DNA from: Pleomorphomonas carboxyditropha
GTDB taxonomy: Bacteria > Pseudomonadota > Alphaproteobacteria > Rhizobiales > Pleomorphomonadaceae
Assembly: GCF_002770725.1 (NCBI RefSeq)
Contig: NZ_NQVN01000020.1
Location: forward strand, 1 to 64,000
Direction: 5' to 3'
DNA length: 64,000 nt
In this document: positions 33,288-42,806 of the stretch, piece by piece
Layout of the letters: each line of letters opens with the position of its first letter
Position numbering within the stretch: the first letter of the stretch is position 1
Notes under the pieces: model-generated
The model's database searches: none
What the model saw: only the letters and a program-made list of their open reading frames with translations
Told to the model about the DNA's origin: nothing
Program-made: the position numbers and the translations under genes

Positions 33288-33414
33288 GTTGGGCTCGGGG
33301 TTCGATTGCGCCGCTTATGCATAGCCCGACGGCCGGTGAATTCAACGGGATTTTCTCGGGAAAGGCCAAACGGAGCAAGGGGAGTTGCTTCCGGCGGGAA
33401 AGCCGGTGGAGGCG

Positions 33415-36400
33415 TCAGAACAGGTTGAGCTGCTGCGCCTGTTTACGTTTTCGTCCGGCGCCGGCGTCGCTGGCCATAAGGTCCGCGCCGATTTCCTTCA
33501 GGAAGGGCGAAGCCGGCAGCGCGCGCACTGCGCCGCGCCAGAACCGCTCCATGGCGCGGGTCAGGAACAGCCTGTCCTTGGCGCGGGTCATGGCGACGTA
33601 GAACAGCCGCCGCTCCTCGGCTTGCGTCGCCTCTTCCTCCGGCGTCGCGGCGCCCCATGAAAACGGCACCAGTCCCGCCTCCATGCCCACCACGAACACC
33701 ACCGGAAATTCCAGGCCCTTGGCCGCGTGCATGGTCATGAGCGAGACGCGGTCGGCGCGCATATCGCGGAAATCGGCCTCGGTGGCCAGGGCCGCCGCCT
33801 CGGCGAGCCGGGCCGGATCGCCGGCCACCTGGTCCGATCCGGCGAGAACGGCCAGCCAGCCTCGCGCCTCGGCGAGCGAGGCCGCGTCGGTCCTTTCCGC
33901 CCGGCGGGCGTCTTCCGCCGCTTGCCCGACGCGTGCGGCAAGGTCCGGCCCCGCCGCCGTGCCCAGCCCTTCGAGGATCGCAATCACCCCGGGATGGCCG
34001 GCGATGGGAGCGGGCGAGCTTTTCATGAACGGGATGCCGGCGCGGTCGAAGGCGGTCCTGAGCGCCGCCGCCTGCGCGTCGGTGCGGTAGAGCACGGCGC
34101 AATCGGCAAAGCCGAGCGGCCGGCCGGCCGGCGCCTCACCACCCTTTCGATTGGCCGCGAGCATGTCGTGGCCGCCGAGCAGGTTCTCGATGGTCGCCGC
34201 GACGAAGTCCGCCTCCGCCGCCTCGCTTGCCGCCGCATGGGTCATGATCGGTTCGCCCATGGGGCGGGTCGGGGCTGCCGGGGGCGCGCCGATGAAGCCC
34301 GAGGCCGCCGTCACGATGGTGCCGGTCGAGCGGTAGTTGCGCGCGAGCCGAAGGGTCGCGGCGGCGGGAAAGTCGCGGCCGAAGCGCGTAAAGCAGGCGG
34401 CGTCGGCGCCGCGGAAGCCGTAGATCGCCTGGTCGGGATCGCCGATGACGCAGAAATTGCCGCTTTCTCCGGTCAGCAGCCGCAGCAGGCGATACTGCTG
34501 CTCGTCCACGTCCTGAAACTCGTCGGCGACGATATGCGGAAAGCGCGTCTGCCATGCGGCGGCGATTTCCGCGTCCTTGTCGAGAAGATCGGCCGACAAC
34601 AGGACGAGATCGTCGAAATCGACCCATCCCTGCGCCCGCCCGATCCGGTCGAGCACGGCGCGGGCCGCCGCTTCCTCGTCCGTGCCTTGTGCGCCGCTGC
34701 GCTTGAGCACCGACACGGCCTTGAGCAGGCGGCCGGCGCGCGCGTCGCTGACGCCGAGCGCCTCGGCCAGTGCCGTCGTGCGCTCCGCCTCGTTGGCGAT
34801 GCGGAAGTCCGCGGCGAGACCGGCGCGGTCGGCATGCGCGTGCAGGATGGCAAGGCCCAGCGAATGGAAGCTGTGCACCGCCACGGCGCCCGCCGTCTCG
34901 CCGAGAAGTCCGGCGAGCCGGGCGCGCAATTCCTCCGTCGCCTTGCGCGTGAAGGTGACGGCGAGGCAGGCGCCGGCCGGCACGCCGCGCTCCAGCACCA
35001 GATGGGCGATGCGGTGGGTGAGCATGCGCGTCTTGCCGGAGCCGGGCCCGGCGATCACCAGGAGCGGCCCGTCGACGGCCTCGGCGGCGCGCGCCTGGTC
35101 GGAGTCGAGCCCGGCGAGAACGCCGCTGCGGCCCGATGGCTGGATCGCGGCAGGGGCTTCAGGGGAGGCCGGCGCTTGCCCCGGCGCCTCGCCCTTCGCG
35201 GCCGGTTTCGCCTGGCGGGCGCGGCTGAGGAGCGGCGCCTCGAACAGGAGCTGGCTTCCGGCGAGGCGGTCCAGTTCCCCGTCCTCGAACAGCCGGATGA
35301 CGCCATATTCGCCGTCGTAGCCGGCTTGCCGGATGACCTCGCCGGAGCGCAGCCGCGTCACGGCCTCGCCGAGCAGCGGATGCACCTTCGCCACATCCTC
35401 GGCCGGTAGCTCCTCCAGCAGGGCAAGCTCCGGCCCGAGCGCGGCAATCGTCCGGTCGTAGGTGTGGGACACGGCTTTCGAGGCGACGCCGCTGCCGACG
35501 ATCTCCGACAGGGGCACCAGGCTCGCCACGGCGCCCGCCGTTGCCGGCGGCACCACTTCGGCCTCGCTGCGGTCGGCGAGCGCCTCGATGCGATGGGCCA
35601 CGCCAATGGTGAGGGGCCGCCCGCAGACCGGGCAGCGGCCGCCCATCGCGATGGTTTCCCTGGGGTCGAGCCGCACACCGCAGGCGCGGTGGCCGTCCAT
35701 ATGGTACTTGCCCTCTTCGGGGAAGAATTCGACCGTGCCGACATAGCCCTCGCCGGTCTCCAGCGCGCGGCGGATGGCGAAATAGTCCGGCTCGCAGGAA
35801 AAGCGCGTCGCTTCGCGGCCGAGCTTGCCGGGCGAATGGGCGTCGGAATTGGAGATGAGGCGGAAGCGGTCGAGCGAGGAAATACGCCAGTTCATGGCCG
35901 GATCGGACGACAGTCCCGTCTCCACCGCGAAAATATGCCCGGCGAGGTCGCCATAGCACTCATCGATCGAGTCGAAGCCCGATTGCGAGCCGAGCGCCGC
36001 GAACCATGGCGTCCAGATATGGGCGGGGACGAGATAGGACTCCGGTCCCGATTCCAGCGCGATCTCCAGAAGGTCGCGCGAGTCGAGGCCGAGGATCGGG
36101 CGGCCGTCCGAGGCGATGTTGCCGATGCGCGCCAGGCTCGCCGCCAGCCGGTCGGCGGCGTCGAGATCGGCGGCATAGATCAGATGGTGGATCTTCCGGG
36201 TTTTGTCGCCTTTCTTGTAGATGGTCGAGATCTCGGTGCACAGCATGAAGGAGACCGGCCGCCGGCAGGCGGGCGGCAGCGTTTCCCACAGCGCCGCTTC
36301 GATTTCCGGCCTGAGGCGAAACAGCCCGTTGCCCTCGGGCACCAGCTTGTCCTTGATCTCGGCGAGCCAGACCGGGTGTACGCAGTCGCCGGTGCCGACC

Positions 36401-36510
36401 ACCCGCACGCCCTTGCGCGCCGCCCACCAGAACAGACGCTCTAGATCGAGATCCCGGCTCGTCGCCCGGGAATATTTCGAGTGGATATGCAGATCGGCGT
36501 GGAAAGTCAT
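33415..36510 (-). CDS. EndoQ-like PHP nuclease fused to UvrD-type helicase
   Basis: A 1031-residue two-part DNA-repair protein. Residues 1-260 are a PHP metal-dependent phosphoesterase: HADLHIHSKYSR (H8, H10), GTGDCVHP (39-46), CTEIS (91-95), and NSDAHSPGKLGRE (221-233). Residues 268-310 (KYHMDGHRACG, GGRCPVCGRPLTIGVAHRIE; C277, C293, C296) match the zinc region of endonuclease Q, the enzyme that nicks 5' of deaminated bases. A linker near 430-465 leads to an SF1 helicase: AGPGSGKT (487-494), FTRKATEEL, VADEFQDVDEQQ, GDPDQAIYGFRGA, LARNYRST, MTMHAAKGLEF, FYVAMTRAKDR. The last six residues, QQLNLF, resemble a beta-clamp-binding peptide. There is one continuous frame with no frameshift, so the fusion is genuine. 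The coupled nick-and-unwind role is inference. Confidence 0.88.
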   Translation of the reverse strand: MTFHADLHIHSKYSRATSRDLDLERLFWWAARKGVRVVGTGDCVHPVWLAEIKDKLVPEGNGLFRLRPEIEAALWETLPPACRRPVSFMLCTEISTIYKKGDKTRKIHHLIYAADLDAADRLAASLARIGNIASDGRPILGLDSRDLLEIALESGPESYLVPAHIWTPWFAALGSQSGFDSIDECYGDLAGHIFAVETGLSSDPAMNWRISSLDRFRLISNSDAHSPGKLGREATRFSCEPDYFAIRRALETGEGYVGTVEFFPEEGKYHMDGHRACGVRLDPRETIAMGGRCPVCGRPLTIGVAHRIEALADRSEAEVVPPATAGAVASLVPLSEIVGSGVASKAVSHTYDRTIAALGPELALLEELPAEDVAKVHPLLGEAVTRLRSGEVIRQAGYDGEYGVIRLFEDGELDRLAGSQLLFEAPLLSRARQAKPAAKGEAPGQAPASPEAPAAIQPSGRSGVLAGLDSDQARAAEAVDGPLLVIAGPGSGKTRMLTHRIAHLVLERGVPAGACLAVTFTRKATEELRARLAGLLGETAGAVAVHSFHSLGLAILHAHADRAGLAADFRIANEAERTTALAEALGVSDARAGRLLKAVSVLKRSGAQGTDEEAAARAVLDRIGRAQGWVDFDDLVLLSADLLDKDAEIAAAWQTRFPHIVADEFQDVDEQQYRLLRLLTGESGNFCVIGDPDQAIYGFRGADAACFTRFGRDFPAAATLRLARNYRSTGTIVTAASGFIGAPPAAPTRPMGEPIMTHAAASEAAEADFVAATIENLLGGHDMLAANRKGGEAPAGRPLGFADCAVLYRTDAQAAALRTAFDRAGIPFMKSSPAPIAGHPGVIAILEGLGTAAGPDLAARVGQAAEDARRAERTDAASLAEARGWLAVLAGSDQVAGDPARLAEAAALATEADFRDMRADRVSLMTMHAAKGLEFPVVFVVGMEAGLVPFSWGAATPEEEATQAEERRLFYVAMTRAKDRLFLTRAMERFWRGAVRALPASPFLKEIGADLMASDAGAGRKRKQAQQLNLF

Positions 36511-36790
36511 GGGGCAGCGTCATTCATCTTGCGAAGGGCGGGAACAAATCCACGTCATGAAGAACGTTGCCACGGTGCATCCCTCCTCCTGACGACTCGG
36601 AATGAATAATGCACCATTGCAGGCCATCGACAACCCGCTCGCCACGAAGTCGGTCCCAAGCGTCCAGGCTGGGCGGGACCATTATGCGGGCCGAGAACGA
36701 CTCGGAGAGCTGCGTTTGGGCCGTAGCCTTACGAAATGACGCCTGAAATCGGCCGAAACTTCATGAAATTACAACGAGGCGGGTCCCGTC

Positions 36791-37243
36791 ATGAAAAAGA
36801 AAACCATCGAGGAAACTCCAAGAGGCGAGCTCTCCGCCGACCAGCCGCTCGATGCGGCGATCAAGAGGCACGCCGATTGGCGTGGCGCGACGCTCGCCAA
36901 AATCCGCAGCCTCATCAGGGAGGCCGACCCCGAGGTGGTCGAGGATGTGAAGTGGCGCAAGCCGTCGAACGACATGCGTGGCGTTCCGGTGTGGGAGCAC
37001 GACGGCCTCGTCTGCACCGGCGAGACCTACAAGACGGCGGTGAAACTGACCTTCGCCAGAGGGGCGGCGCTCGACGACCCGTCCCGCCTGTTCAACGCCG
37101 GTCTCGATGGCGGCACGCGCCGCGCCATCGACATCCATGAGGGCGAGGAGATCGACGAGGCGGCGTTCAAGGCGCTGATCCGCGCCGCGGTGGCGGAGAA
37201 CAAGGAAGTTGGCGCTCGCAAGAAGTCGAAGGCAAAGCGATGA
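36791..37243 (+). CDS. DUF1801 domain protein
   Basis: A 150-residue cytoplasmic protein of the DUF1801/YdhG-like group: LAKIRSLIREADPEVVEDVK followed by WRKPSNDMRGVPVWEHDGLV and TYKTAVKLTFARG is the family pattern (the W-x-xP-x-W segment with an aromatic pocket). Function is not established; members are often encoded next to SRPBCC/AHSA1 proteins, as here. ATG 36791 has GAGGCGGG upstream. Its TGA overlaps the start of the broken SRPBCC gene (ATGA), implying the two were once a coupled pair. The C-terminus is lysine-rich (KKSKAKR). Confidence 0.75.
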   Translation: MKKKTIEETPRGELSADQPLDAAIKRHADWRGATLAKIRSLIREADPEVVEDVKWRKPSNDMRGVPVWEHDGLVCTGETYKTAVKLTFARGAALDDPSRLFNAGLDGGTRRAIDIHEGEEIDEAAFKALIRAAVAENKEVGARKKSKAKR

Positions 37244-37666
37244 GCGACGGTGAAATCCGCTCCGTCGTCGTCGACGCGACATCCCGCATCCGCCGGAAAA
37301 GGTCTGGCGCGCGCTCACCCAGCCGCACTTGATCGCCGAGTGGCTGATGGACAACGACTTCGTGCTCGCCGTCGGCCACCGCTTCAACCTGCGGGGCGAA
37401 TGGGGCGGCGTGCTGGACTGCGAGGCTCTCGCCGTCGGGCCGCCCGGGACGCTGTCCTACACCTGGAACCACGCGCACAGCGACCCGGCTTTCGGCCTAA
37501 CCAGCGTGGTGACCTTCACGCTCACGCTGACACGCACCGGCACGCACCTGCGCATGGAGCAAAAGGGATTTTCCGCCCCGATCAGCGCCAAGCCTTTGGT
37601 TGGGCCAGGCAGGGCTGGCAGGCCTTTCTCGGCAAGTTGGAGCAGGTTGCTTCGCAGCTCGACTAA
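37240..37666 (+). pseudogene. Frameshifted SRPBCC/AHSA1-family gene
   Basis: Three frames together rebuild one AHSA1-like START-domain protein. From 37240, MSDGEIRSVVVDA; after a one-base loss near 37277, DIPHPPEKVWRALTQPHLIA, then EWLMDNDFVLAVGHRFNLRG and on to MEQKGF; after a second loss near 37570, FRPDQRQAFGWARQGWQAFL, ending at a TAA at 37664-37666. Both ends fit the family, and each break needs only one missing base. Either the gene is freshly inactivated or there are two assembly errors. It overlaps the DUF1801 gene by 4 nt. Confidence 0.75.
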
Positions 37667-38085
37667 GGCGCGTTGCGGTGTGCAATCAGCGGTTTATGGC
37701 GGGCTGAAGACGAGGAATCGGAGAACTGCATCTCCGCTATAGCCCTCCAGAATTGAGGCAAGGGCGAATAGCTTCCATTGATGGGAAGCTGTCGGTCTGC
37801 TCCCGGCCCTAAGCTGCCGATCGTATCAAGCGGCAGCTAAGGTCCGGAGGCAAGCCTATAGCGGGCAACCCCCTGTAACTTTAGGTCAAGGCTGCCACCC
37901 GCTACGCATGACGCAGAAATCTCTTTTGAAACCAGCTTGTTGATCTATGCTTCAGCGCCTACCTTCGGCCGCGTTCCGCGCCTTCATTGACTTTTTCAAG
38001 GCACGCGCAGGGGCTGAGGCTGCGCAAAGGATGGCATGAGGGACCGATGCATCTCCACTGGACACTTTGCGCATGAGGGGTGCGA
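37667..38085. other. Intergenic stretch with one small hairpin
   Basis: No coding frame with support is seen in these 419 bp between the broken SRPBCC gene and the convergent AraC gene. AGCTGCCG (37812-37819) and CGGCAGCT (37831-37838) form a perfect 8-bp stem around 11 nt, without a T-run. The composition is somewhat lower in GC than the flanks. Confidence 0.4.
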
Positions 38086-39048
38086 CTACGCTTCATCTAG
38101 ATGAGGTTCAACATCGCTTTCGGCGAAGGTCTGACGGATGGCCACGCGATAGCGTTTAGGTGCCCTTCCCGTCACACGCTTGAACGCGGCACTGAATGCA
38201 TTCTCCGAGGTATAGCCTACAGACGAGGCAACCGCCGCGAGCGGCTTGTTGCTTTCCTTGAGCGCGCGTTCGGCCAGTCGCATCCGCCATTCCGTCAGAT
38301 AGGTCAGCGGCGGGACGCCGGCGACAGACTTGAAATAGACCGCGAACACCGTCCGCGACATGCCCGCCGCCTTCGCCAGCTCGGCCAGGTGCCAATCTCG
38401 GCGAGGGTCGCCGTGGATCAGTTTGATGGCCGGGGCAATGCGGGGATCACAGATGGCCCGCAGCCGGCCAACCGCCATTTCGTCCTTTCCCCCAACATAG
38501 ACGCGCAGGATTTCGAGGAACATGAGCTGCGCCAGTTGCGCCGTGGCGAAGTGCGCGCCGAGCCGTCCCTGTTGATGTTCCCTCACAAGCTGCTCTATCA
38601 GCCATTCCAGCGTGCCAGCTTCGGGCATGTTGGCGGGAAGGTGGACTGTAGGCGGCAAGCTGTCGAGCAGAAGCCGCCCGGCCTCATTGTCGATCAGCAC
38701 ATGCCCGCCCAAGAACAGGAAATCATCGCCATCGGCTATGTTGATGATTTCGCATGTCCCGCTCGCGAAAACCTGTTCGGCATCGAGCATGGGAGCAGAC
38801 AGGTCGCTTGCGAGCACGAACGGCCGTTGGGTGGCGAGCAGGAACACATCACCCTGTCGTAGCCGGATAGGCTCGCCCATGCCGTCGATCACCAGCCAAC
38901 ATTCACCCTTGGCGGGAATGAAAAACTTGATCTTGTCTGGACGCGGAAAGCGGATCGCCCATTTGCCGCCAGCGGTGAAGCCACCCGAGGTGGCGGAGCG
39001 GACGCGCACGAGGGATAGAATGCTCGAGAAAGGATCGTCTTCGCTCAT
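38086..39048 (-). CDS. AraC-family regulator with N-terminal cupin
   Basis: A 320-residue activator: residues about 30-200 form an RCS1-type cupin (KWAIRFPRPDKIKFFIPAKG, ECWLVIDGMGEPIRLRQGDV), followed by two AraC helix-turn-helix motifs (WHLAELAKAAGMSRTVFAVY and PLAAVASSVGYTSENAFSAA, then FKRVTGRAPKRYR). It is transcribed away from two tandem SDR genes with only 95 bp between start codons, the usual arrangement for a regulator and its target. The inducer is unknown. The neighbourhood (SDRs, recombinase remnant, tRNA) suggests acquired DNA. Confidence 0.88.
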   Translation of the reverse strand: MSEDDPFSSILSLVRVRSATSGGFTAGGKWAIRFPRPDKIKFFIPAKGECWLVIDGMGEPIRLRQGDVFLLATQRPFVLASDLSAPMLDAEQVFASGTCEIINIADGDDFLFLGGHVLIDNEAGRLLLDSLPPTVHLPANMPEAGTLEWLIEQLVREHQQGRLGAHFATAQLAQLMFLEILRVYVGGKDEMAVGRLRAICDPRIAPAIKLIHGDPRRDWHLAELAKAAGMSRTVFAVYFKSVAGVPPLTYLTEWRMRLAERALKESNKPLAAVASSVGYTSENAFSAAFKRVTGRAPKRYRVAIRQTFAESDVEPHLDEA

Positions 39049-39143
39049 TTTCGAACTATCGCGTTGCTATTGCGGACGGTCAAGCATTCTCCGTTCGTAC
39101 TCGCAAGGCTATCTCCGTCCGAAACGGCCACAGGAGATAGACT

Positions 39144-40148
39144 ATGAGCCAGCAGAAGCCGCTCGGAACCGGATTCGGCCGAGCATCCACGACCGCCGAT
39201 GTTATCAAGGGCATCGACCTTTCCGGAAAAACCATCATCGTGACCGGCGCGAACGCCGGTCTCGGCCAGCAAACAGCGAGGACGCTGGCCGGCGCTGGCG
39301 CGCATGTGGTCGCCGTCGCGCGGAACCCGGACAAGGCGTGCGCCGCGCTGGAAGGTGTCGCCAATGTTGAGTTCGACACGCTCGACCTATCGGACTCGGC
39401 ATCGATACACGCATTTGCCGACCGCTTTCTCGCCTCGGGGCGACCGCTGCATGTGCTCATCAACAACGCCGGCATCTTCTGCCGCCCGTTCGCGCTCGAC
39501 GGACGCGGGATCGAATCCCACTTCGCGATCAATCATCTTGGGCATTATGAGCTGACCGTGCGCCTCTGGCCGGCTCTTAAAAAGGCCGGCGGCGCGCGCG
39601 TCGTCACGGTCAGCTCGCTCGCGCACCGCATTACAGGCGTGGACTTTGAAGACATTAATTTCGAGAAGCGCGAGTATCAGCCGATCCTAGGCTATGCGCA
39701 GTCGAAGACGGCCAATGTTCTGTTCGCCGTCGAACTGGACCGGCTCGGCCAATCCGACAATATCCGTTCCTTCGCCATTCATCCCGGCGTGGTCGTTCAG
39801 ACGGACATCATCAATCACTTCAGCGAGGAAGAACGCCGGGGCGTCGGGGAATGGACCGAGGACGGCCGCCCGGTGGTCAATGCGGAACAGGGCTACAAGT
39901 CGATCCCGCAAGGTGCCGCAACATCGGTTTGGGCGGCCACGAGTCCGCAGCTCCACGGCTTGGGCGGCGTCTATTGCGAAAGTTCCGATATAACTCCGGT
40001 CCTGACGCCCGAACAGGTCGCAAGCTGGGGCGGCATTGCCGCCGATCCCTCCCACCCTGCCGGGGTGATGGATTTCGCGATTGATCCCGAGGCCGCAGGG
40101 CGCTTGTGGGCACTCAGCGAGAACCTGACTGGCACCCGCCTTTCCTAA
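39144..40148 (+). CDS. Short-chain dehydrogenase/reductase (first of a tandem pair)
   Basis: A 334-residue SDR resembling retinol-dehydrogenase/WW-domain-type oxidoreductases. TIIVTGANAGLGQQTARTLA is the TGxxxGxG cofactor loop, INNAGIFCRP the NAG motif, and GYAQSKTANVLF holds the YxxxK catalytic pair (Y-A-Q-S-K) with an upstream VSSLA serine. It would oxidise or reduce a carbonyl or alcohol with NAD(P). It starts 95 bp from the divergent AraC gene and is followed after 68 nt by a close paralogue. The C-terminal 60 residues extend past the core SDR fold and are shared with the paralogue. Confidence 0.88.
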   Translation: MSQQKPLGTGFGRASTTADVIKGIDLSGKTIIVTGANAGLGQQTARTLAGAGAHVVAVARNPDKACAALEGVANVEFDTLDLSDSASIHAFADRFLASGRPLHVLINNAGIFCRPFALDGRGIESHFAINHLGHYELTVRLWPALKKAGGARVVTVSSLAHRITGVDFEDINFEKREYQPILGYAQSKTANVLFAVELDRLGQSDNIRSFAIHPGVVVQTDIINHFSEEERRGVGEWTEDGRPVVNAEQGYKSIPQGAATSVWAATSPQLHGLGGVYCESSDITPVLTPEQVASWGGIAADPSHPAGVMDFAIDPEAAGRLWALSENLTGTRLS

Positions 40149-40216
40149 CGCAGCATCTTGGCCGCCCGAAGCTGGAGGCCAATCACCTATTCGCAACCCG
40201 GAACGGAGACCTAGAC

Positions 40217-41230
40217 ATGACCACTCCCCAAACCCCAATCAATTCCGGCTTCACGGCATGGTCCACAACCTCGCACGTCATCAAGGGCATCGACCTCGTT
40301 GGCAAGGTGGCGATCGTCACTGGCGGCTATTCCGGACTCGGCCGCGAAGCCGCTCGCACCTTCCTGTCGGCCGGTGCGCGCGTCATCGTGCCGGCGCGTG
40401 ACGTAGAGCGCGCCCGCAAGGCGCTCGACGGCCTACCCGGCGTCGAGATCGAGGAAATGGACCTGCTCGACCCCGCCTCGATAGACGCTTTCGCCAAGCG
40501 GTTCCTCGATTCCGGCCTGCCTCTCGACATGCTGGTCAACAGCGCCGGCATCATGGCGCTTCCCGAACGCACGCTCGACGCGCGCGGCTACGAGCTGCAA
40601 TTCGCCACCAACCATCTCGGCCATTTCCAGCTTACCGCCCGGCTCTGGCCGGCGCTGAAGGCCACGCCGGGCGCTCGCGTCGTGTCGGTGTCCTCAATGG
40701 GGCATCGGTTCTCGCCGGTCATCTTCGACGATCTCACTTTCGAGAACCGCCCCTATGAGCCGTGGTCGGGCTACGGCCAGTCGAAAACCGCCAACATTCT
40801 GTTCGCGGTCGAGCTGGACGCGCGCGGCCAGACCGACGATGTGCGGGCCTTCTCCCTGCATCCGGGCGGCATCCCCGGAACCGGCCTCGAAAAGCATGTG
40901 CCGCGCGCCGACCTGATCGCCGCAGGCGTCATTGACGAGAACGGCGTCCCTCAGATCAACCCGGCCAAAGACCTCAAATCGTTCCCGCAGGGCGCGGCCA
41001 CCCATGTCTGGTGCGCGACCAGCCCGCAGCTCGACGGCAAGGGCGGCGTGTTCTGCGTCGATTCTGAAATTGCGCCGCTGATGGATGCCGCTCCCGAGAA
41101 CTTCTCTATGGCAGAGAGCCAGTCCGGGCACCGAGATAACGGCGTCGCCCCGTATGCCGTCGATCGCGAGGCCGCAAAGCGGCTTTGGGAAGTCAGCGAG
41201 CAGTTGACCGGCGTGCAGTTCGCGATTTGA
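40217..41230 (+). CDS. Short-chain dehydrogenase/reductase (second of a tandem pair)
   Basis: A 337-residue SDR paralogous to the preceding gene. Both begin with a T-x-H/D-VIKGIDL segment, then share the cofactor loop (AIVTGGYSGLGREAARTFLS here), GYGQSKTANILFAVELD with the catalytic tyrosine and lysine, and LHPGGIPGTGLEKH. The shared C-terminal extension (DREAAKRLWEVSEQLTG against DPEAAGRLWALSENLTG) argues for tandem duplication. ATG 40217 is supported by AACGGAGACC upstream; the longer frame from 40106 overlaps the first SDR. The two enzymes may use related substrates or successive intermediates. Confidence 0.88.
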   Translation: MTTPQTPINSGFTAWSTTSHVIKGIDLVGKVAIVTGGYSGLGREAARTFLSAGARVIVPARDVERARKALDGLPGVEIEEMDLLDPASIDAFAKRFLDSGLPLDMLVNSAGIMALPERTLDARGYELQFATNHLGHFQLTARLWPALKATPGARVVSVSSMGHRFSPVIFDDLTFENRPYEPWSGYGQSKTANILFAVELDARGQTDDVRAFSLHPGGIPGTGLEKHVPRADLIAAGVIDENGVPQINPAKDLKSFPQGAATHVWCATSPQLDGKGGVFCVDSEIAPLMDAAPENFSMAESQSGHRDNGVAPYAVDREAAKRLWEVSEQLTGVQFAI

Positions 41231-41426
41231 TCGCTCGGCTGACTCCGACTGCTGGCCGGGGTGCCGCCAGCGCATAGACGCAAATGCGGCACGCTACAGA
41301 CCGCCGACTGCCCTCCATGGTTCGCTTAATTCCGGGGCCTTGAGTGCCCCGGAATCCACCCGAACCACGGAGGATTCCATGTGTGCGGCGCCGACGAATC
41401 CACGCCAGACGGCCGGGAACGCCGCA

Positions 41427-41905
41427 GGTCGCCGCACCTATATCGGCGAGCATCGATTCAATCGCCGCTCCAACAAGAGTGAGGTGAAGCCCGAGGAAGA
41501 AGTCGTCACCGTCGCGGTGCCGCCGCTGATCGACCTTGAGACCTTCGCTCGCCTCGCTACTGGCTCGTCGGCAGGAGAGCATCGAGCGGCGCAGCCAGCA
41601 CATCGCCGAATTGAACCAGCGCGCGACCGAGGCCGACAACCGCCTCAAGTGGCTCTACGACGCGATTGAGGCCGGTTCGCTCGGACCGGCGGAATCCGCC
41701 CTCGGCGAGCGGATCGCGGACCTTACCGCGTTACGGGATCAGGCGCGGGCAGACGCGGCAAGGACCGAGGCCATGCTGAAAAGCTCGGTCCATCAGGGCC
41801 TCACAGGGGCGGCCGTGCGGGAACTGACGAGCGTCGAGGTCGCGGACGACGCGATCTACATCAAAGGCAGCAAAAGCACCCTGTTGAGGACGCTGATAGC
41901 CACTA
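41427..41905 (+). pseudogene. Serine-recombinase C-terminal remnant
   Basis: GRRTYIGEHRFNRRSNKSEV followed by [13 protein letters not shown] matches the region before the zinc ribbon of large serine recombinases. The text then jumps, in another frame, to [20 protein letters not shown] and [20 protein letters not shown], their C-terminal coiled coil. The zinc-ribbon part is deleted and the frame changes at the join (about 41555); the catalytic N-terminal domain is absent altogether. The open frame then runs into the tRNA gene. It is a dead piece of an integrase that probably brought in DNA at this tRNA-Ser locus. Confidence 0.75.
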
Positions 41906-41951
41906 ATGGAGGGAAATCGGCGGGAACGGCGTTCCCGGTTTTATATCAAAG

Positions 41952-42041
41952 TGGCGGAGAAGGAGGGATTCGAACCCTCGATAGGGTTGCCCCTATACAC
42001 GCGTTCCAGGCGTGCGCCTTAAACCACTCGGCCACCTCTCC
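41952..42041 (-). tRNA. tRNA-Ser (anticodon GGA)
   Basis: On the minus strand the gene starts GGAGAGGTGGCCGAGTGG at 42041 and ends with the T-arm GAGGGTTCGAATCCCTC and CTTCTCCG. The acceptor stem GGAGAGG/CTTCTCC pairs with one G-T. The anticodon loop CTGGAAC between CACGC and GCGTG gives anticodon GGA, reading UCC/UCU serine codons. A long variable arm (TATAGGGGCAACCCTA), typical of class II tRNA-Ser, is present. The CCA end is encoded (TGG at 41952-41954 on the plus strand). A recombinase remnant abuts its 3' side. Confidence 0.97.
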
Positions 42042-42072
42042 GTACGGCCGGCGCCCCGGCTCGTGGCCGCGC

Positions 42073-42100
42073 ACTATAGCGATGTTCGTTGGGAGCGCAA
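42073..42100 (-). promoter_or_regulatory. Promoter of tRNA-Ser
   Basis: Reading the minus strand, TTGCGC (42100-42095), a 16-bp spacer and TATAGT (42078-42073) form a good sigma70-type promoter. Transcription would begin near 42066, about 25 nt before the mature tRNA 5' end. Confidence 0.6.
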
Positions 42101-42275
42101 GAGGGGGAAGCCGCTCTTGGAAAAACTTCGCCCGGCAAGGTGGAGATTCAGTGCCAACTCTTTGTTTTTATAAGCTCACTTGCGCCGGAAAGGAGGGTCG
42201 AAAAGCCGCCGCCCATCACTTGGAGGGACGTGTCGGCCGGTCCCCAAGCGCTGCGGCACCGGCCCGGCCGGGCCT

Positions 42276-42806
42276 TTATGCCCAAAGCCGCGAAGCCGGC
42301 GGATTCTCGCCGTCGATCGCCTGCCGCACGCTGTCGATGCGCCGCATCAGCTCGCCGGATATGCGCGTCTGCAGGGCGTTGAGCACGGTCTCGGCGACGG
42401 CGCGGCGATCGGCCTTCCGCTCGATCAGCGCCGGGTCGCGCAGCGGCCAGCGCAGCGTCACGTATTCGGCGAGGCGAGCGCAGTCGGACTCGGTCCAGGT
42501 GACGGTGGCGAGGTCGACGACGATATGCGGCCGCAGCCCGCCCGGCAGGGCGAAGATCGTCCACGACTTCGGCTCGAGGCCATCGGTGGGAATGGCGCGC
42601 TGGGTGAGCGCCTGCGCGGCTTCCGGCAGCAGGGCGGCGGCCGGCCGGCTGCCGGCGCTGAAGGCGCGGATGCGCGTGTCGCCGCGCTGATTGAGCAACG
42701 CCTCGGCCATCAAGCTGGTCGCGCTGTTGGTTTCGCACAGAAACAGCACATCGACGGTTTGCATCCTGAACAAGCCCCTGACGCTCGAAGGTGTCGCCAA
42801 AGCCAT
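42276..42806 (-). CDS. Low-molecular-weight phosphatase/ArsC-like protein with altered P-loop
   Basis: A 176-residue protein of the LMW tyrosine-phosphatase/thioredoxin-type arsenate reductase fold: [20 protein letters not shown] is the P-loop region, and [20 protein letters not shown] follows as in the family. The signature C-x5-R normally reads CTGNSARS; here it reads CETNSATS, so the cysteine is kept but the arginine that holds the phosphate or arsenate is threonine. Catalysis by the usual mechanism is therefore doubtful; it could be a binding protein or regulator. I choose ATG 42806 (GAGGCGGG upstream); a start at 42764 (MQTVDVLF) would give the bare domain. Residues after about 130 form a helical C-terminal extension. 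It lies between tRNA-Ser and the sdh operon with no obvious partner. Confidence 0.65.

Follow-up and report, generated by a model that had tools for sequence, protein, structure and literature searches.

An EndoQ-like nuclease fused to a 2B-reduced UvrD-like helicase with a putative clamp-binding tail: a candidate single-chain nick-and-unwind repair enzyme

What could a protein do that carries an endonuclease Q (EndoQ)-like nuclease, a UvrD-like helicase and a possible clamp-binding peptide in a single chain? The question is raised by a gene in the first 64,000 nucleotides of contig NZ_NQVN01000020.1 of Pleomorphomonas carboxyditropha (assembly GCF_002770725.1), a stretch that we call the window. 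The original prediction, made from the letters of the window, read this gene as an alternative excision repair module, and that reading remains our best hypothesis for the fusion protein. We consider it, on balance, probable that the product is a single-chain nick-and-unwind repair enzyme in which nicking, strand displacement and clamp coupling occur together. The fusion, the predicted fold, the conserved catalytic residues, the shortened 2B region of the helicase and the conserved tail are directly supported by the results described here. Papers are cited by their PubMed Central (PMC) accession.

The open reading frame (ORF) listing bore out the claim of one uninterrupted frame: the gene starts with ATG, encodes 1031 amino acids (aa) and has zero internal stops. 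All motifs that had been named were located in it, namely H8/H10, NSDAHS at residues 221-226, C277/C293/C296, AGPGSGKT at 487-494 and MTRAKDR. Related loci were taken as the best 80 of at least 584 relatives among 591 pattern matches, and residue conservation is given for 68 homologous proteins, 55 of which entered the alignment from which an AlphaFold2 model was built. The mean predicted local distance difference test score (pLDDT) of this model was 85.7 and its predicted template modeling score (pTM) 0.59; pLDDT fell below 50 at linker residues 419-449 and in the last 14 residues of the protein. Conservation in the linker was also low (0.23 at residues 421-440 and 0.18 at 441-460). Across the homologues, conservation is lower in the helicase, which evolves faster than the nuclease. 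The layout and the coordinates of all features are collected in Table 1.

Table 1. Features of the fusion gene and its product in the window. Fractions refer to the aligned homologues; Pfu, EndoQ of Pyrococcus furiosus.
Feature	Residues	Window positions	Strand	Evidence
Whole gene		33415..36510	minus	1031 codons plus stop; homologous frames in 80 loci
EndoQ-like PHP endonuclease domain	1-418	35257..36510	minus	phmmer, TIGR00375, Foldseek
H8 and H10 metal-binding motif (with D6)		36481..36489	minus	H8 66/68, H10 68/68; Pfu H8/H10
E93, essential metal ligand (Pfu E76)	93	36232..36234	minus	68/68
H108, essential metal ligand (Pfu H84)	108	36187..36189	minus	68/68
H164, metal ligand and base discrimination (Pfu H139)	164	36019..36021	minus	68/68
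G199-L-S201, steric exclusion of T and A (Pfu G169/S171)	199-201	35908..35916	minus	G199 and S201 each 68/68
D223-A-H225 (Pfu D193/H195)	223-225	35836..35844	minus	D223 and H225 each 68/68
Predicted zinc site H274, C277, C293, C296	274-296	35623..35691	minus	H 67/68; three Cys 68/68
Linker, mostly disordered	419-462	35125..35256	minus	model pLDDT and low conservation
UvrD-like SF1A helicase	463-1017	33460..35124	minus	PF00580, PF13361, Foldseek
Walker A AGPGSGKT	487-494	35029..35052	minus	sequence; positions invariant or nearly so
Reduced 2B region	about 832-919	33754..34017	minus	motif IV-V distance
C-terminal QLNLF, putative beta-clamp-binding motif	1027-1031	33418..33432	minus	conservation and controls

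Residues 3-410 of the protein align to residues 3-385 of P. furiosus EndoQ (PfuEndoQ; phmmer against 5zb8_A, E 1.2e-48), with 131 identities among 371 aligned residues. Superposition on an EndoQ structure and conservation of the catalytic residues among homologues had been named as the points on which the prediction could fail. Foldseek placed the model on 5zb8_A with a template modeling (TM) score of 0.85 by target length (root-mean-square deviation 3.2, 420 columns, 31% identity) and on the dU-bound structure 7k30_A with a TM score of 0.82, and the catalytic residues are invariant in 68 of 68 sequences, with D6 identical in all of them as well. The positions concerned are those on which activity depends in the characterized enzyme: the E76A, H84A and H139A forms of EndoQ are inactive, and T and A are excluded by H139, G169 and S171 (PMC8307549). 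The EndoQ of P. furiosus and Thermococcus kodakarensis (5zb8, 7k30) thus resembles the fusion in sequence and fold over the whole domain and in its catalytic and base-discriminating residues, but it is a stand-alone protein of about 424 aa with no helicase.

The zinc region was as predicted at C277, C293 and C296, each present in all 68 sequences, but not at the fourth ligand. The four-cysteine site of PfuEndoQ is not reproduced, and His274 (67 of 68 sequences) stands in the position of the first cysteine, Cys249 in Pfu; to judge from its residues, a His-Cys3 site could still bind zinc. Because of this substitution, we call the protein an EndoQ homologue that would work like EndoQ, not a strict member. 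The TIGR00375 profile gave 151.6 bits (E 3.8e-44), under its curated cut-off of 326.6 bits, which makes the domain homologous yet places it outside that equivalog model. The conserved residues are strong evidence for a nuclease of the EndoQ type that is probably active, while not proving its substrate.

The C-terminal half matches PF00580 at residues 469-715 (E 5e-62, 210.5 bits, cut-off 23) and PF13361 at residues 902-985 (E 1.9e-34, 120.1 bits, cut-off 25.6). Foldseek aligned it to UvrD/PcrA structures with TM scores by target of up to 0.74 among the matches listed. Superfamily 1 (SF1) helicase motifs I to VI are all present in the homologue alignment, and their key positions, including those of Walker A, DExx and motifs III, V and VI, show little or no variation. 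The protein scored 353.2 bits with the PcrA equivalog TIGR01073 (cut-off 911.2), 290 bits with the UvrD equivalog TIGR01075 (cut-off 1144.45) and 289.9 bits with the Rep equivalog TIGR01074 (cut-off 951.45), so that the helicase, though homologous, belongs to none of these groups. It shares the motor core, all motifs and the overall fold with UvrD, PcrA and Rep; on the other hand, it differs from them in the fused nuclease, in scores far under the NCBIfam cut-offs, in a shortened 2B region and, in many members, in a GGH-type insert before motif IV.

The shortened region qualifies the earlier description of a complete SF1 helicase, which holds for the motifs but not for the fold. The 2B domain is located between motifs IV and V, which are 121 residues apart in the window protein. 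The distance could be scored in 62 of the 68 family members, with a median of 118 residues and a range of 105-150 in 61 of the 62; the remaining value, 261 in L023, is either real or a mis-hit. As controls, we used the best UvrD-model matches in the carrier genomes, of which 20 of 30 fetched loci passed the motif filter. The distance was 194-214 residues in 16 of these 20, gave no value in two and was 274 and 92 in the others. The alignment to PcrA falls into two segments, between which 35 residues of the window protein and 113 of PcrA stay unaligned, and a TG/GG-IG motif occurs between positions 780 and 980 in 1 of the 68 proteins. In UvrD and Rep, monomers are autoinhibited by the 2B domain. 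Its deletion activates the Rep monomer (PMC13238157). With the 2B domain largely gone, we infer that the fused motor may be active as a monomer.

Two further observations concern the helicase. In many homologues, the insert before motif IV, at residues 774-795 (window about 34126-34191), includes a motif of the GGH(S/N)FFSxDSGR type; in 49 of 68 sequences the residue after GG is H, R, Q or T, and the insert has no counterpart in the PcrA alignment. In addition, the phage DNA helicase family phrog_1967 aligns with residues 467-1014 as a single block of the same length (152-699 of 776), and the short 2B layout may be shared with this family.

The chain ends in exactly QLNLF, which is the clamp-binding motif of Pol V (PMC11139829), in agreement with the earlier claim of a clamp-like tail. 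Pol V and other clamp clients share this short motif with the fusion and are otherwise unrelated enzymes. To count the tail we took 67 of the 80 loci, those with complete frames of more than 900 aa. Of the 13 others, five are cut by contig ends and eight are short: two split genes (L054 and L057), one with a broken frame (L027), and five (L010, L012, L039, L043 and L071) that have no helicase match in the flank covered, 2.5-5 kb downstream. A match to Q[LM]xL[FL] lies within the last 12 residues of 58 of the 67 long homologues and has one occurrence at the 67,529 other positions in these proteins. When the sequences other than L046 were shuffled, the mean was 0.07 and the maximum 1 of 66. Eight of the nine misses carry what we judged to be near-end variants (QDSLF, QFSLF, QLTLI, QLTLF followed by nine residues, QLTLSLD, QRTLFEIE, QMSFDF and QETLFEL), and the ninth, L046, has RQLKLF in another frame. 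In this Sorangium cellulosum homologue (L046, 4626-8147), the helicase half lies off-frame from the EndoQ half, an apparent frame break or sequencing error.

Absence of the tail from close relatives would have told against the prediction, and a survey of how often fusion and tail co-occur had been proposed; the tail was found in relatives both close and remote, among them the second carrier in the genus, whose protein terminates in RQLSLF. None of the three points on which the prediction could have failed told against it. Two fused proteins outside the count end in EQLSLFGDEDV (L158) and DQVQKSLFDF (L159). The motif was present in none of the 20 scored UvrD-type helicases of the carrier genomes and in none of 12 helicase-less relatives, whose last 25 residues were included. 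In the split or frame-broken genes (L054, L057, L027), the tail stays on the helicase piece. The protein thus presents a QL-x-L-F peptide at an accessible terminus, as beta-clamp clients do, on an end that is modelled with low confidence and is probably disordered. From its sequence, QLNLF probably hooks the protein to the replication clamp. Archaeal EndoQ likewise has a clamp-type motif at its very C-terminus, in that case a PIP box through which it binds PCNA and is stimulated by it (PMC4858679). Bacterial homologues have been noted to carry beta-clamp motifs (PMC4858679); the helicase-less relatives of the fusion found here are tailless. Stand-alone bacterial EndoQ, as described for Bacillus pumilus and B. 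subtilis, is reported to be active and has no helicase.

That the tail is missing from relatives without the helicase, and that the helicase evolves faster than the nuclease, is what one would expect if the helicase were merely a passive scaffold holding the clamp motif for an active nuclease. However, an intact ATPase would be needless in a scaffold, and Walker A, DExx and motifs III, V and VI have all been kept. We regard this explanation as very improbable.

How, then, would a nick-and-unwind enzyme work? The EndoQ part would flip a deaminated base (uracil or hypoxanthine) or an abasic site out of the DNA and cut the phosphodiester bond 5' of the lesion, leaving a 3'-OH; the nick made by EndoQ is known to have 3'-OH and 5'-phosphate ends (PMC4357722). 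At this nick, the SF1A motor would load onto the intact strand and run 3' to 5', a geometry that we infer from the known polarity of SF1A helicases. Moving the same way as a polymerase that fills in from the 3'-OH, and ahead of it, the motor would peel off the lesion strand starting at its 5' end and, having lost most of its 2B domain, might work as a monomer without activators of the MutL type. The QLNLF peptide would tether the protein to the beta clamp and so place it on newly replicated DNA, where the gap could be handed to the clamp-bound polymerase and ligase. A localization of EndoQ to newly synthesised DNA has been considered possible, given its interaction with PCNA (PMC7690668). That the enzyme nicks with this specificity, displaces the strand at the expense of ATP, acts as a monomer, binds the clamp and couples these steps is our reading of the features described above.

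A helicase step after the EndoQ nick has been proposed (PMC4357722, PMC8438529). These models bear on the most serious alternative, in which the helicase acts before the cut, scanning or opening DNA or clearing proteins for EndoQ, and excision is left to Pol I and exonucleases. Such a role would agree with the translocation of UvrD-family monomers on single-stranded DNA (PMC13238157), with the link between the Rep 2B domain and protein displacement, with the ability of EndoQ to cut both duplex and single-stranded DNA (PMC8307549), and with a helicase that is conserved less than its nuclease. However, the shortened 2B region speaks against Rep-like protein displacement, and the two models of the EndoQ pathway cited above put the helicase after the nick. 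We therefore consider a motor acting before the cut unlikely, though still worth weighing. The step after the nick has so far been a proposed model, and the nick-and-unwind reading gains its interest from the fact that a natural fusion in ten phylum-level groups unites its parts, which makes this step directly testable with one purified protein. More tentatively, and with rather less confidence, we suggest that the fusion represents a widespread glycosylase-free excision-repair machine made of one protein, which would nick at lesions, unwind as a monomer with a motor whose reduced 2B region frees it of autoinhibition, and dock on the clamp, so as to remove deaminated or misincorporated bases from newly replicated DNA.

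Several points weigh against a nick-and-unwind enzyme. In the open-licence literature we found no biochemistry on the fusion protein or its fused relatives. The predicted zinc site differs from that of Pfu in one ligand (His274), the tail lies in the part of the model with pLDDT below 50 and its binding to the clamp is putative, and the low pTM of the model makes the placement of the nuclease and helicase halves relative to each other uncertain. Relatives that lack the helicase demonstrate that an EndoQ domain can be retained with no motor attached. Finally, a gene of the uracil-DNA glycosylase (UDG) superfamily was present in 50 of 51 carrier genomes searched and MutS in 43 of the 51, so that the selective need for the fusion is unclear.

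The presence of UDG in nearly all carriers indicates a parallel pathway, not a replacement, and the idea that the fusion stands in for a missing UDG was rejected. Nor was a role as stand-in for a missing MutS supported; 40 of the 43 MutS matches were over the cut-off, and the eight carriers in which no MutS match was found are the set's Actinomycetota. The set of 51 comprises the window's own genome, G008 and the genomes of 49 of the 80 loci; it includes four with a helicase-less EndoQ (L010, L012, L039, L043) and three with a split or frame-broken gene (L054, L027, L046). EndoV was found in 12 of the 51, five of these by weak matches, and since it was counted without a background set, any connection with hypoxanthine repair is no more than a lead.

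The fusion is widespread yet patchy. The fused forms included in our tree represent ten phylum-level groups (Pseudomonadota, Melainabacteria, Elusimicrobiota, Myxococcota, Binatota, Planctomycetota, Verrucomicrobiota, Acidobacteriota, Poribacteria and Actinomycetota), many of them from metagenome-assembled genomes. In genome samples searched for TIGR00375-type matches, each count including the centre genome, a match was found in 2 of 20 genomes of the family and in 7 of 249 of the order, the latter all in open frames of at least 1034 aa. The phylum sample gave 18 of 299, ten in frames of at least 1018 aa and eight in frames of 410-514 aa (one cut by a contig end), and a sample of Actinomycetota gave 5 of 198, three in frames of at least 1088 aa, one cut by a contig end and one a weak partial match.

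The tree, from a quick search, has 66 rows: 41 of the 68 long fused proteins of the first set (the window's included), 10 of 18 further fused loci, 12 helicase-less proteins, two split ones and Pfu. L145, one of the further fused loci, repeats L031; L139 and L144 run off their contigs and were left out. Helicase-less forms are nested among fused ones, with seven changes, and branches with good support force at least four of these. Most simply, the fusion is old and was followed by recurrent loss of the helicase and by horizontal transfer; the direction of change is not certain because the archaeal outgroup is a very long branch. The 12 helicase-less relatives (L010, L012, L039, L043, L071, L127, L130, L133, L134, L137, L140 and L141) belong to the same clade, without helicase and without clamp tail; for L140, the flank covered was the one first fetched. 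L010 is from the same genus as the fused L007.

A patchy distribution also invites a role in defence, in which the protein would be an accessory anti-phage nuclease-helicase, of the GajB kind or an EndoQ directed against uracil-containing phages. The best PADLOC matches were the RTasHel (E 4e-71) and GajB (E 8e-71) helicases, the gene borders a region that is not syntenic with congeners, and an antiviral role of bacterial EndoQ has been suggested in a review (PMC8307549). Among the matches listed, however, PADLOC covers only the UvrD-like helicase part, which is the core that the fusion shares with Gabija GajB. GajB is a separate subunit that works with GajA and is not fused to a PHP nuclease. 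Flanking ORFs were taken as the nearest on each side of 150-900 aa, and the split-off helicases of L054 and L057 were removed from 138 of them; because this choice was mechanical, some of the 136 may be spurious. They contained eight PADLOC families (E up to 1e-10) in one to three ORFs each, with no recurrent partner and without GajA, the partner that a Gabija system calls for. Repair accounts better for the strong conservation between phyla and for the clamp tail. The EndoQ half had no relatives in 72,556 plasmid or 50,697 phage records, which led us to reject carriage by mobile elements, and a scan of viral contigs with two short patterns gave no relative among 30 matches. A defence function thus seems improbable. 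The helicase half alone matched six phage and five plasmid records, with identities under 60% throughout and query coverage always below 80%.

A conserved operon partner was likewise rejected, since the largest cluster shared among the flanks occurred at 4 of 80 loci and the top Pfam family in 5 of the 136 flanking ORFs. In the open-licence PMC literature, including the available parts of PMC4357722, PMC4858679, PMC6202378, PMC11354406, PMC8307549, PMC8438529 and PMC7690668, we found no description of an EndoQ-helicase fusion, which is not proof that none exists.

In the window, the neighbours of the fusion gene encode a LacI-type regulator and a DUF1801 protein (Pfam). The stretch on the left, with a transport protein and the LacI gene, has a full-length match at 79-89% in 11 of 13 congeners. 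In nine of the 11, the alignment stops at 33342-33359, which leaves some 70 bases to the fusion gene's stop codon, and in the other two at about 33285. Five congeners were read at least 7 kb further, and in these nothing to the right aligned; the right flank gave only short congener matches, on other contigs. In the second carrier of the genus, the fusion gene and the LacI region lie on different contigs. The G+C content of the fusion gene is 70.3% versus 65.6% and 63.0% beside it. The synteny break, the G+C content and the contig placement, seen in draft genomes, suggest lateral acquisition of the fusion gene. Further to the right, a tRNA-Ser (GGA) lies at 41952-42041, and the first stretch of the ORF at 41536-42690, which has no Pfam match, resembles the end of a serine recombinase. 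Congener synteny stops at about 33345, just past the 3' end of the fusion gene, and the region 33345-41900 is possibly the scar of a genomic island.

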